NCBI RefSeq assembly: GCF_003583935.1
Contig: NZ_QYRN01000001.1
Location: 558,001 to 622,000 of the forward strand
Direction of reading: 5' to 3'
Length of the DNA: 64,000 bases
Source: Aureimonas flava
GTDB lineage: Bacteria; Pseudomonadota; Alphaproteobacteria; Rhizobiales; Rhizobiaceae
Program-made: the position numbers and the translations under genes
Notes under the pieces: generated by a model
Seen by the model: the letters and a program-made list of their open reading frames with translations, nothing else
What the model was told of the DNA's origin: nothing
The model's database searches: none
In this document: positions 27,076-41,911 of the stretch, one piece after another
How the letters are laid out: every line of letters starts with the position of its first letter
How positions within the stretch are numbered: position 1 is the stretch's first letter

Positions 27076-27976
27076 ACGTGGCGAGCTCGACGATCTGGCG
27101 GTGTTCGCGGCGGTCGCGCGATCCCGCAGCTTCACGCGCGCGGCAGCCGCGCTCGGCCTCTCGCCCTCGACGCTGAGCCATACGATACGCGGTCTGGAGG
27201 AGCGCCTCGGTCTTCGGCTCCTGGCGCGCACGACACGCAGCGTCGCTCCCACCGCCGCCGGCCGCCGGCTGCTCATGTCGCTGGAGCCGGCGCTCGCGGA
27301 GATCGACCAGGGGCTGTCGGCGCTGGCATACTGGCGCGACGCTCCTTCCGGCGCGCTGCGCCTCACCACCTACAGCCACGGGGCGCGCACGGTGCTCGCG
27401 CCGCGCCTGCCGCGCTTTCTCCTCGACCATCCCGACATCGCGGTGGAGGTGATCGTCGACGACCGGTTGGTGGATCTCGTGGCGGACGGGTTCGATGCCG
27501 GCATCCGCCTGGGGGAGACGCTGGAGGCCGACATGGTGGCGGTGCGCGTCGGCCCGGACCTGCGCACGGTGGTGGTGGGTACGCCGGACTACTTCGCAGC
27601 CCATCCCCATCCCGAGACGCCTGCCGACCTGAAGTCGCATCGCTGCATCAATTACCGCCTCGTCGGCGCGGGCAGGGTCCTGCCCTGGGAGTTCGAGCGC
27701 GCCGGGCAGGACATGAAGATCCAGCCCGGCGGACAGCTCGTGGTGAACGACGAGGGGCTGGCGGCAGCCGCCGTTCGGGCCGGCGCCGGGCTCGGCTACA
27801 TGATGGAGCACGATGTCGCCGCGGAGGTCGCGAGCGGCCAGCTCGTCCAGGTTCTGGGGGATTGGTGCGTGCCCTTTCCCGGCTGCCACCTCTACTACCC
27901 GCACCGACAGGTGTCGCCCGCGCTGCGGGCCCTGGTGGATGCGTTTCGCTGGAAGGGGGACGGCACGGCTTCATAG
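27071..27976 (+). CDS. LysR-family transcriptional regulator
   Basis: 301 residues. Helix-turn-helix at about residues 4-62 (LAVFAAVARSRSFTRAAAALGLSPSTLSHTIRGLEERLG, then LLARTTRSVAPTAAG), followed by an effector domain with GALRLTTYSHGARTVLAPRLP. The family usually autoregulates and controls the divergent gene, here the aldo/keto reductase. The effector is unknown. The ATG at 27071 lies within an inverted repeat shared with the neighbour's start. Confidence 0.93.
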   Translation: MRRGELDDLAVFAAVARSRSFTRAAAALGLSPSTLSHTIRGLEERLGLRLLARTTRSVAPTAAGRRLLMSLEPALAEIDQGLSALAYWRDAPSGALRLTTYSHGARTVLAPRLPRFLLDHPDIAVEVIVDDRLVDLVADGFDAGIRLGETLEADMVAVRVGPDLRTVVVGTPDYFAAHPHPETPADLKSHRCINYRLVGAGRVLPWEFERAGQDMKIQPGGQLVVNDEGLAAAAVRAGAGLGYMMEHDVAAEVASGQLVQVLGDWCVPFPGCHLYYPHRQVSPALRALVDAFRWKGDGTAS

Positions 27977-28373
27977 CCACGGCATGTCCGCGGCGCCGAC
28001 GCGAATGGAGCCTTCCTCGTCCGCGCCGCGCGTCATCCCCGTTCACTCCCCGCCCTACCGCCCTCGGCCTATGCTCCTCCCATCGCCGGCCCGTTCTGGA
28101 TGGGCGCGAATGATCACCGGGATCGTTCGGAAGGGCCGGCGAGCGGTGTCCGCGATGCGCGCCCTGCCGGAGGGCGCGTGGCCCGGACGGTTCCTGGCAT
28201 GGGGGGTTGGCTGTCCAAAACGAGGCGGCTCCTCTGAAAACTCGGCGCTGGAGACAGCCCACGTCCATCCGGTGAGAGCGGATGGGCCGATCGGGCCGAG
28301 GCGCCCTCCGTAACCCCCGTCGAAGGCGCATGGGCCGGCCTGGCACGCCGGTCCGGAACTGGACAACACCGCG
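27977..28373 (+). other. Gene-free stretch after the LysR gene
   Basis: No ORF with family similarity was found. A hairpin CGCGCCCT (28158-28165) / AGGGCGCG (28171-28178) is present and could weakly end the LysR transcript, though no T-run follows. The region is GC-rich and irregular in codon pattern in all frames. Confidence 0.4.
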
Positions 28374-28433
28374 CGGGACGCCGGAGGCGGACCACAACAC
28401 AACAACCAACGGAGGTTCGCCTCCGGCGTCCCG
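28374..28433. repeat. Perfect 16-bp inverted repeat with a CA-rich loop
   Basis: CGGGACGCCGGAGGCG at 28374-28389 and CGCCTCCGGCGTCCCG at 28418-28433 pair without mismatch. The 28-base loop is rich in C and A and ends in GGAGGTT. Such a stem is very stable in RNA. It may be a terminator without U-run, a small RNA hairpin, or a dispersed palindromic repeat of this genome. Confidence 0.6.
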
Positions 28434-28559
28434 TCGCCCACTCCCGGGCGGAACCGCGAGCGACGAGATCCCAACACCCCGGCCGCCGAGAGCGGTGCGG
28501 GCGCTTCCGTGCATCCGCACGAGGCTTCATGTTTCGTTCACCATCCGGTCCGCGACCCC

Positions 28560-28594
28560 TTGACGTTCCGTGCTCGATGGAACAAAAAAGGAAC
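28560..28594 (+). promoter_or_regulatory. LexA (SOS) box with upstream -35-like element
   Basis: GAAC-AAAAAAG-GAAC at 28580-28594 is, on the other strand, GTTC-N7-GTTC, the direct-repeat LexA site known from alphaproteobacteria. A TTGACG hexamer at 28560-28565 would place a -10 near 28583, inside the box, so LexA would block this promoter. A third GAAC occurs at 28599-28602. The target is the small ORF at 28617 and possibly dnaE. Confidence 0.65.
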
Positions 28595-28616
28595 ATAGGA
28601 ACGAAAGGGGAACGAC

Positions 28617-28700
28617 ATGCTGATCCTGAAGGAACTCGCTTCGCTGACCGCTCTCTCGCTCTTCTTCGCGAGCTTCGCGCTGGTCGTCCACTTTCTCTGA
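28617..28700 (+). CDS. 27-residue putative SOS-regulated membrane peptide
   Basis: A 27-codon ORF starting at ATG 28617 with GAAAGGGG six bases upstream, a strong ribosome site. The peptide begins MLILKELASL and ends ALVVHFL; apart from one Lys, one Glu and one His it is hydrophobic and would span the membrane once. It lies 22 bases after the LexA box at 28580-28594. Caulobacter SidA, a 29-residue SOS-induced inner-membrane division inhibitor, has the same size and layout, but I cannot claim sequence similarity. It may instead be a leader peptide of dnaE, whose ATG is 108 bases downstream. Confidence 0.6.
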   Translation: MLILKELASLTALSLFFASFALVVHFL

Positions 28701-28808
28701 CCACGATGGTTGTCCGGACGACCCTGGCGGGCGTCCCGGCGGCCTCTTATCTGGGGATGGGCCCTCGGGGGCGGGCCCGTCCTGAAATCCCAGGCTGGAC
28801 TCCGCCCC

Positions 28809-32408
<3,600 letters not shown>

Positions 32409-39181: not shown

Positions 39182-41911
39182 TCAGTCCGCCTTCGCCTTC
39201 GCCGCCGGCTTGCGGGCCGCCGGCTTCTTGGCAGCGGCCGTCTTGGTCTCGCCGGCCTTTGCCGAGGCCCGGCGTGGCGCCGGCTTCTTCGGCTTCTCCT
39301 CACCGTCCGCCTTCGCGGCCTTGGTCGTCTTAATCGCCTTCTTGGCCGGCGCCTTCTTGATCTTCGTGCCGGTCTTTTCGGCGCGCTCGTTGAGGATCTG
39401 GATCGCCTCTTCCAGAGTCACGCTGGCGGGGTCCTTGCCGCGCGGCAGCGTCGCGTTCACCTTGCCGGCGTTGACGTAGGGGCCGAAACGGCCCTCGCGC
39501 ACGGTGATCGACCCGCCGATGGTCGGGTGTTCGCCGAGCGTCGCGAGCGCCGCCGGCGTTCCGCGCCCGCGCCCCCCGCGCTCCTTCTTCTCGGCGATCA
39601 CGGTGACGGCGCGGTTGAGGCCGACCGTCAGCACGTCCTCGATCGACTCGAGGTTGGCATAGGCGCCGTCGTGCTGGAGGAACGGCCCGTAGCGGCCGAG
39701 GCCGGCGAGGATGGGCTTTCCCGTTTCCGGATGGATGCCCACCTCGCGCGGCAGCGACAGGAGCTGGCGCGCCTTCTCGAAGTCGATGTCGGCCACCTGC
39801 CAGCCCTTGGGCAGGGACGAACGCTTCGCCTCCTTGCCCTCGCCGCGCTGGACGTAGGGGCCGAAGCGGCCGGACCGCAGCGTCACCGGCTCGCCGGTTT
39901 CGGGATCGGTGCCGAGGTCCTTCGGCTCGTTCAGCCCGCCGTCGCCGTCCACGCCCTCGGCCTGGAGGTTGGTGCCGAGCTGCCGCGTGAAGCCGCATTC
40001 GGGATAGTTGGAGCAACCCACGAAGGCGCCGAACTTGCCCAGCTTGAGGCTGAGCCGGCCGTCGCTGCAGCGCGGGCAGGCGCGCGGGTCCGTCCCGTCG
40101 CCCTTGTCCGGGAAGACGAGCGGCGCGAGTTCCTCGTTCAAGGCGTCCAGCACGTCCGAGACGCGCAGTTCCTTGGTGCCGTCCACCTGGGCGGAGAAAT
40201 CGCGCCAGAACTCACGCAGAACATCCTTCCAGGACAGTTCGCCAGCGGAGATGCCGTCGAGCTTGCCCTCGAGGTCGGCCGTGAAGTCGTACTCCACGTA
40301 GCGTTCGAAGAAGTTGTGCAGGAAGGCCGTGACCAGCCGCCCCTTCGAATCGGGGAACAGCTTGCGCTTGTCCTGGACGATGTACTCGCGGTCCTGCAGC
40401 GTCTGGAGCGTCGCGGCGTAGGTGGAGGGGCGCCCGATGCCGAGCTCCTCCATCTTCTTGATGAGCGAGGCTTCGGAGTAGCGGGGCGGGGGCTCGGTGA
40501 AGTGCTGGGTCGGATCGACCGACAGGCGCTTCAGCGCATCGTTCGCGCTGATCTCGGGCAGGCGCGCGCTGTCGTCGTCGTCCTCGCTCGTCTCGGCGGG
40601 AGCCTTGGAATCGTCGCGGTGATCCTGATAGGCGCCGATGAAGCCGTCGAAGCGGATCACCGAGCCGGTGGCGCGCAGCATGGCGCGCCGGCCGCCGCCC
40701 GTCGCTTCGATCTCGGCCGTGGTGCGCTCGATCTCGGCAGACGCCATCTGGCTGGCGATGGCGCGCTTCCAGATCAGGTCGTAAAGCCGTGCCTGGTCGC
40801 GATCCAGGAAGCGTTCCACCTCCTTCGGATGGCGGTCGAAGCTCGTCGGGCGGATCGCCTCGTGCGCTTCCTGCGCGTTCTTCGCCTTGGTCGAATAGAA
40901 GCGCGGCTTCTCGGGCACGTAACGCTCGCCGAACGTCGTGCCGATCGCCTTGCGGGCGTCGGAGACCGCTTCCGGCGCCATCTGCACGCCGTCGGTTCGC
41001 ATATAGGTGATGAGGCCCACCGTCTCGCCGCCGATGTCCATGCCCTCGTAGAGGCGCTGGGCGATCTGCATGGTGCGCGAGGCGCCGAAGCCGAGCTTGG
41101 CCGAGGCTGCCTGCTGAAGGCTGGAAGTGGTGAAGGGCGGCGACGGGTTGCGGCGCGTCGGCTTCGCCTCGACCGACAGCGCCTTGAACGCGGCGCCGTT
41201 CAGCATGTCGCGCATCTCGAAGGCGCGCGCTTCGTTGCCGATCGACAGGCGCTGGAGCTTCTCGCCGTCGAAGGCGGTCAGGCGCGCGGTGAAGTCCTCG
41301 CCGCGCGGCGTCGAGAGGCGGGCGGCGATCTGCCAGTACTCGTCGGTCTTGAACCGCTCGATCTCGGCCTCGCGGTCGCAGACGAGGCGCAGCGCCACCG
41401 ATTGGACGCGGCCCGCCGAGCGGGCGCCCGGCAGCTTGCGCCAGAGAACCGGGGAAAGCGTGAAGCCGACGAGATAGTCCAGCGCGCGACGGGCGAGATA
41501 GGCGTCCACCAGCGGCACGTCGATCTCGCGCGGATTCGCCATCGCGTCCAGCACCGCCTTCTTGGTGATGGCGTTGAAGACGACGCGGCTGACCGGCTTG
41601 TCCTTGATGACCTTCTTCTGCTGCAACACCTCGAGCACGTGCCACGAGATGGCCTCGCCCTCGCGATCCGGGTCGGTGGCGAGGATCAGGCCGTCGGCGC
41701 CCTTCACGGCCTGCGCGATCTCGGTCAGGCGCTTCTGCGACGGCTTGTCGACCTCCCAATCCATGGCGAAGTCGTCGTCCGGGCGCACCGATCCGTCCTT
41801 GGGCGGCAGGTCGCGCACATGGCCGAAGGAGGCGAGCACCTTGTAGTTGCTGCCGAGATATTTGTTGATCGTCTTCGCTTTGGCCGGCGATTCGACGATA
41901 ACGACTTCCAT
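39182..41911 (-). CDS. topA: DNA topoisomerase I
   Basis: 909 residues, type IA enzyme that relaxes negative supercoils. The TOPRIM domain opens with VVIVESPAKAKTINKYLG and holds ATDPDREGEAISWH; the active-site Tyr is Tyr303 in GLITYMRTDGVQM. C-terminal parts are one zinc ribbon (CPRCSDGRLSLKLGKFGAFVGCSNYPEC) and several topoisomerase C-terminal repeats, then an Ala/Lys tail of about 70 residues typical of alphaproteobacteria and actinobacteria. The start at 41911 (MEVVIVES) is the family start; the frame is open 18 codons further. Upstream is dprA on the same strand. Confidence 0.98.
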   Translation of the reverse strand: MEVVIVESPAKAKTINKYLGSNYKVLASFGHVRDLPPKDGSVRPDDDFAMDWEVDKPSQKRLTEIAQAVKGADGLILATDPDREGEAISWHVLEVLQQKKVIKDKPVSRVVFNAITKKAVLDAMANPREIDVPLVDAYLARRALDYLVGFTLSPVLWRKLPGARSAGRVQSVALRLVCDREAEIERFKTDEYWQIAARLSTPRGEDFTARLTAFDGEKLQRLSIGNEARAFEMRDMLNGAAFKALSVEAKPTRRNPSPPFTTSSLQQAASAKLGFGASRTMQIAQRLYEGMDIGGETVGLITYMRTDGVQMAPEAVSDARKAIGTTFGERYVPEKPRFYSTKAKNAQEAHEAIRPTSFDRHPKEVERFLDRDQARLYDLIWKRAIASQMASAEIERTTAEIEATGGGRRAMLRATGSVIRFDGFIGAYQDHRDDSKAPAETSEDDDDSARLPEISANDALKRLSVDPTQHFTEPPPRYSEASLIKKMEELGIGRPSTYAATLQTLQDREYIVQDKRKLFPDSKGRLVTAFLHNFFERYVEYDFTADLEGKLDGISAGELSWKDVLREFWRDFSAQVDGTKELRVSDVLDALNEELAPLVFPDKGDGTDPRACPRCSDGRLSLKLGKFGAFVGCSNYPECGFTRQLGTNLQAEGVDGDGGLNEPKDLGTDPETGEPVTLRSGRFGPYVQRGEGKEAKRSSLPKGWQVADIDFEKARQLLSLPREVGIHPETGKPILAGLGRYGPFLQHDGAYANLESIEDVLTVGLNRAVTVIAEKKERGGRGRGTPAALATLGEHPTIGGSITVREGRFGPYVNAGKVNATLPRGKDPASVTLEEAIQILNERAEKTGTKIKKAPAKKAIKTTKAAKADGEEKPKKPAPRRASAKAGETKTAAAKKPAARKPAAKAKAD

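Follow-up and report, generated by a model that had tools for sequence, protein, structure and literature searches.

A probable SidA-family peptide gene with a predicted LexA operator upstream of dnaE in Aureimonas flava

Just ahead of dnaE in Aureimonas flava lies a short hydrophobic open reading frame preceded by a GAAC-N7-GAAC motif, and the question that this locus raises is whether the pair is an accident of sequence, a leader of dnaE, or a gene in its own right that serves the SOS response. The reading that we consider probable is that the frame encodes a member of the SidA family, whose product, under LexA repression, would span the inner membrane as a single helix and halt division when the SOS response is on. 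SidA is described as a 29-residue, SOS-induced inhibitor of the inner membrane that interacts with FtsW (PMC4211646). The locus was analysed within a 64,000-nucleotide stretch of the A. flava genome (the window), to which the coordinates given here refer, and all of its features are on the forward strand.

The frame runs from 28617 to 28700, stop codon included, and encodes MLILKELASLTALSLFFASFALVVHFL, a peptide of 27 residues with a Kyte-Doolittle maximum of 1.98 over 19 residues, which is a measure of hydropathy only. A ribosome-binding site, read from the sequence as GGGG at 28607-28610, stands 6 nucleotides 5' of the ATG. Frame and ribosome site had both been noticed in an earlier, sequence-only reading of this DNA and were found again; the GAAC-N7-GAAC box of that reading, GAACAAAAAAGGAAC at 28580-28594, also keeps its coordinates, and a second one that it overlooked, GAACGAAAGGGGAAC at 28599-28613, overlaps the ribosome site, with a like arrangement in the closest members of the genus. 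The -35 candidate from the same source stood in part: TTGACG is present at 28560-28565, and TTGAC or TTGAT also lies 5' of the box in numerous genomes of the genus and family, but a simple scan recognised no sigma-70 type promoter at the locus, and the promoter is kept as a candidate.

Downstream, dnaE (DNA polymerase III alpha, 28809-32408) is identified by the Pfam domains PHP, DNA_pol3_alpha, finger and HHH_6 from the ATG at 28809, with the TTG at 28710 as a possible alternative start; it is treated as a neighbour that stands outside the proposed effector. Pfam and NCBIfam gave no model for the peptide itself, and individual members gave single weak matches to unrelated families, the best at E 0.033.

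Conservation of the frame and the nature of its box

Taken by itself the GAAC-N7-GAAC motif is unremarkable. The window holds three matches where 1.5 are expected, and at least three occur in 12 of 100 shuffles; the third, at 40208, lies inside a long coding frame and is set aside as chance. This near-expected count is what speaks for a chance hydrophobic frame beside a chance match to the motif, a reading that becomes scarcely credible, and is refuted by conservation, once the genus is considered. The frame is present, with 27 codons and an identical start, in all 21 genus genomes, including that of A. flava; of the 210 sequence pairs, 209 have a pN lower than pS, and variation is least at second codon positions. 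A box lies within 100 nucleotides of the peptide start in the 20 genus genomes that carry the peptide no more than 900 bp upstream of dnaE (exact in 19, one mismatch in one, against 0.1 exact expected from shuffles), and the remaining genome, G002, has an exact box as well. Upstream regions of 700 bp contained a box with a membrane frame in 19 of 21 genus genomes and in none in each of 20 shuffle rounds. Because the frame is conserved throughout the genus and under selection at the level of amino acids, it is a real gene and not a product of chance, and conservation also lifts the box above the chance level of its motif. The sequence-only reading had proposed looking for the box and frame together in relatives, and had named stop codons within the frame as grounds for dropping the idea; the pair was found in the genus, with 20 exact boxes and one with a single mismatch among 21 genomes, and the frame is open in every one.

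Two variations on this layout were seen within the genus. Three members (L008, L010, L011) carry a reverse-strand box, GTTC-N7-GTTC, 35 nucleotides upstream of the usual one, a different two-operator arrangement. In G002 the intact peptide gene is separated from dnaE by a nine-copy tandem array (L017, 1536-2390) whose 95-bp unit is a repeat of the peptide gene's 3' end and the intergenic stretch that follows it.

The A. flava genome as a whole gives the motif a context. There are 133 matches in it, compared with 32 for a control motif read backwards. Twenty regions were picked by eye among the matches listed, and in five of these the motif stands directly 5' of a gene named from Pfam and NCBIfam as lexA, uvrA, imuA-like, dinB or a uvrD/pcrA-type helicase; in most of the other 15 it either falls inside an open frame or adjoins an unrelated gene. 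The imuA-like protein falls under the NCBIfam curated cut-off, and its contig also bears a second dnaE-type gene. The boxes of the peptide gene are thus of the type that marks SOS genes in this same genome, and a LexA operator is predicted. The box at dinB, the gene for DNA polymerase IV, occupies 867-881 of its region (L355); for Caulobacter dinB, PMC1839093 cites no evidence of SOS control.

The peptide in the wider family, beside dnaE and away from it

Beyond the genus, 98 genomes of the family gave a dnaE match, and the upstream regions of 68 were read. Thirty-five of these carry the peptide no farther than 900 bp upstream of dnaE, and in the 34 loci with enough upstream sequence to be scored the box is exact in 30, with one mismatch in three and two mismatches in one. 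These family peptides are mostly of 28 residues, compared with 27 in the genus of the window. The other 33 genomes have no peptide at that distance from dnaE, and a search of their whole genomes found it elsewhere in 28, each time with an exact box in front. In one of them, G529, the box belongs to the second of two copies found, the first being without it. A convincing peptide is missing from five genomes (G526, G527, G609, G563 and G607): three are of 2.0 (G526), 1.1 (G527) and 1.5 Mb (G609), G563 is 76% complete, and G607, in 770 contigs, gave just a fragment match inside a long frame. The peptide is therefore kept with a LexA-type operator of its own in 63 of the 68 family genomes read outside the genus.

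These counts bear on the proposal, made in the sequence-only reading as an alternative, that the frame is a leader peptide or upstream reading frame coupling dnaE expression to DNA damage. Its proximity to dnaE is considerable: no more than 900 bp in 20 of 21 genus genomes, in 35 of the 68 family genomes and in all 24 Caulobacteraceae considered in the following section. A small frame in the dnaE1 5'-UTR of Sinorhizobium meliloti has, in addition, been proposed as a possible uORF (PMC10117765), and co-transcription is likely there. Against this stand the 33 family genomes in which the peptide is not near dnaE, in 28 of which peptide and exact box are found elsewhere; the tandem array that parts the two genes in G002; and the action of selection at the amino-acid level. 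An attenuator between the frame and dnaE was also considered and rejected, since the transcript stretch between the two has no more stable fold than its shuffled versions (z -0.75) and no terminator was found there on the forward strand. A role as a dnaE leader is disfavoured because the box accompanies the peptide even in genomes where dnaE is not its neighbour, and we regard such a role as improbable.

S. meliloti, which also has the peptide, deserves separate mention. In strain Ak57 the gene order is lipoprotein-releasing permease, ABC ATPase, a 28-residue frame encoding MADFVRDLAAFASMSLFIVSISVIALGL, and dnaE, and two overlapping GAAC-N7-GAAC boxes are present. No gene is listed for this frame in the table of PLSDB, a table that is incomplete. 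The frame is probably sORF25, which was detected by Ribo-seq in the dnaE1 5'-UTR and for which a possible uORF role has been suggested (PMC10117765). The likeness between sORF25 and the window peptide is that of small frames at the same place; the difference is that the published proposal concerns a uORF and not a division inhibitor. If the Ak57 frame and sORF25 are the same, the published uORF candidate becomes a testable SOS effector, and, with a transcript that runs into dnaE, levels of dnaE mRNA could also go up after damage, whether incidentally or as a second function. A record encountered in this connection, CP090106.1, is a 3.7-Mb S. meliloti "plasmid pSymB" that carries the lipoprotein-releasing permease gene and dnaE, and looks like a mislabelled chromosome.

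A few observations concern other copies of the peptide. G570 (L384, L385) and G529 (L345) hold extra copies or relatives that lack a LexA-type box, next to a box-bearing copy. One family peptide gave an 82% match to Sinorhizobium and a 64% match to Shinella, in keeping with a family that is here taken to be the Rhizobiaceae. A plasmid search with one of the dnaE-unlinked family peptides returned no match. On plasmid pRlX6 of Rhizobium beringeri (L382, 1480-1608), an annotated hypothetical protein of 42 residues, ARDGAAFLSMSLFIIAVSIA, has the family core; it is a weak match (E 6), and the stretch read 5' of it contains no GAAC box.

Relation to SidA of Caulobacter

For the comparison with SidA, 25 Caulobacteraceae genomes were hand-picked from 80 named loci. 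A dnaE match was found in 24 of these (18 titled Caulobacter, five Phenylobacterium, and one "Proteobacteria bacterium isolate CAULO1"), the exception being the C. vibrioides MAG 32-67-7. All 24 have a frame just upstream of dnaE, of 29 residues in 22 and 30 residues in two, as counted from the nearest upstream start (ATG in 23, GTG in one), and longer in-frame starts are possible at many of these loci. A box lies within 100 nucleotides, exact in 15 and with one mismatch in nine, where shuffles lead one to expect 1.8 of 24. The peptide of C. vibrioides OR37, of 29 residues, may serve as an example, with a Kyte-Doolittle maximum of 2.06 over 19 residues.

This Caulobacteraceae frame is probably SidA itself, as judged from length, locus tags and gene order. 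We take the older tag of Caulobacter sidA to be CC1927. In the newer numbering sidA is CCNA_02004 (PMC10769358). Published tags give CC1926 for dnaE and CC1983 for recN (PMC1839093) and CCNA_02062 for recN (PMC12700426), and from the resulting offset of 79 the tag of dnaE should be about CCNA_02005, adjoining sidA.

A profile was built from 54 peptides, all from the family of the window and several with starts set by hand at an inner ATG, and was run against 650 stop-to-stop segments from the upstream regions of the 24 Caulobacteraceae. Its best 24 matches were exactly the 24 Caulobacteraceae peptides, one per genome, at E 4e-4 to 0.12, with 14 better than 0.01; the next match had E 8.1. Fourteen distinct sequences represent the 24 peptides, and when each was compared with 300 composition shuffles, 13 beat all of them, and for the remaining one a single shuffle of the 300 scored as well or better. 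The reverse direction is weaker: a profile of Caulobacteraceae peptides only, run against 2576 segments, gave 14 matches at E<=1, all of them the peptide, where 55 loci carry it; three came from the genus of the window (L013, L014, L018), and the window peptide was not among the 14.

Direct comparison of single sequences is far less telling. The window and OR37 peptides share 5 of 27 positions in ungapped alignment, no better than in a shifted register. What the families have in common is a core near [KRQ][DE]x2[SA][LF]x[SA][VILM]x2F with equal spacing, and in 68 aligned peptides its columns hold D or E in 68, S or A in 68, L or F in 68 and F in 67. The window peptide is further like SidA in its length (27 against 29 residues), its single predicted helix, its control of the GAAC-N7-GAAC type and its place just upstream of dnaE; it is unlike SidA in its low pairwise identity and in missing the FVWM[MV] stretch that is conserved in the Caulobacteraceae. 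Homology is thus favoured on the strength of profiles in both directions together with gene position and operator, and not on pairwise identity, and the window peptide is linked to SidA by way of its relatives. The sequence-only reading had spoken of a functional counterpart of SidA, perhaps of separate origin; the profiles, position, length and operator motif go further and point to one and the same family.

The profile result also bears on another possibility, namely that the peptide is a SOS-induced membrane toxin of the kind found in E. coli, acting elsewhere than on the divisome. TisB is a short protein with a single hydrophobic helix and is under LexA control. These same features, found also in DinQ (PMC3567139), are fitted by the window peptide in length, predicted helix and operator type. 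Yet what the profile picks out is the peptide at the sidA position; the helix is of low amphipathicity (muH 0.22); and for a cis antisense RNA antitoxin, which a type I toxin would have, a search of 27900-29400 against Rfam gave no family at E<=1, although an antisense RNA outside the described families may exist. A toxin like TisB or DinQ seems to us quite unlikely, and membership in the SidA family remains the preferred reading.

Proposed action and range of the peptide

The proposed mechanism is carried over from published work on SidA, from which we infer LexA binding, induction by damage, insertion into the membrane and a block of division through FtsW. In an undamaged cell, LexA would sit on the GAAC-N7-GAAC boxes across the region of the promoter and ribosome site and keep the gene off. 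Upon DNA damage, RecA would trigger cleavage of LexA and the peptide would be made; it would then insert in the inner membrane and hold back the late divisome (FtsW/FtsI/FtsN) for as long as repair takes. Two genetic results from Caulobacter are relevant here: filamentation is reported to be lost in a lexA sidA double mutant (PMC12700426), and the FtsW substitution A31K to suppress SidA (PMC4211646). The A. flava genome encodes FtsW, and the residue aligned to A31 is Ala. This lends weak support to a target in the divisome, weak because the site varies among other carriers of the peptide, where it is Thr or Val. The 68 aligned natural variants may be of use in this respect, as their invariant residues point at a likely contact with the divisome.

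Comparable inhibitors are known. DidA of Caulobacter is likewise a small, damage-induced division inhibitor of the inner membrane that is described as acting at the FtsN/FtsW/FtsI complex (PMC4211646). It differs from the window peptide in having 71 residues and in being SOS-independent (driven by DriD), with no LexA control. YneA, SosA and like SOS division inhibitors of Gram-positive bacteria are larger proteins. They resemble the window peptide in being SOS-induced and membrane-bound, and YneA is described as interacting with FtsW (PMC13396833); a 2014 paper terms yneA, divS, chiZ and sidA unrelated genes (PMC4211646).

In the open literature searched, no description of SidA outside Caulobacter came up, though the defining paper (Modell 2011) may mention relatives; the same search found no SOS division inhibitor gene assigned in Alphaproteobacteria other than Caulobacter. 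The peptide would add a member to an established family and strongly widen its range, and would not be a new kind of system. The Rhizobiaceae include polar growers, and for rhizobia and their kin a conserved gene of 27 to 28 codons with a LexA-type operator is a concrete candidate for the SOS division inhibitor. The distribution suggests that a division brake of the SidA type is more widespread among relatives of Caulobacter than the one organism in which it was described. We lean, with some reserve, towards the wider view that SidA is an ancestral and largely overlooked SOS division brake of the Alphaproteobacteria, nearly family-wide and organised as a self-contained unit of operator and peptide that in many genera has moved away from dnaE.

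How far the peptide extends within the class was approached in two ways. Whole-genome searches with the genus profile gave a match in 128 of 387 genomes of the class at E<=1 and in 16 of 121 genomes of the order at E<=0.1. Apart from that in G386, these matches were noise-like and were discarded; two loci were read, of which L027 is real and L023 is not. A phage collection, for its part, held no relative of the Caulobacter peptide at E<=10. Reading anchored on dnaE took over from the whole-genome searches, and covered 80 of 233 matched genomes, hand-picked among the matches listed, with small genomes mostly skipped and three of the 80 from the same order as A. flava. A box lies within 700 bp upstream of dnaE in 18 of them, accompanied by a membrane frame under a strict rule in 11, compared with none in each of 20 shuffle rounds; at four further loci (L138, L175, L177 and L213) the box is joined by a suitable frame which the strict rule overlooked. 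Three boxes have no fitting membrane frame in the 700-bp regions, and the dnaE upstream regions of the remaining 65 of the 80 genomes contained no box with a peptide frame. When a joint profile was run against 2192 segments, the six best matches were box-linked peptides, three of them at E below 0.02 and the next three at 0.6 to 2.4.
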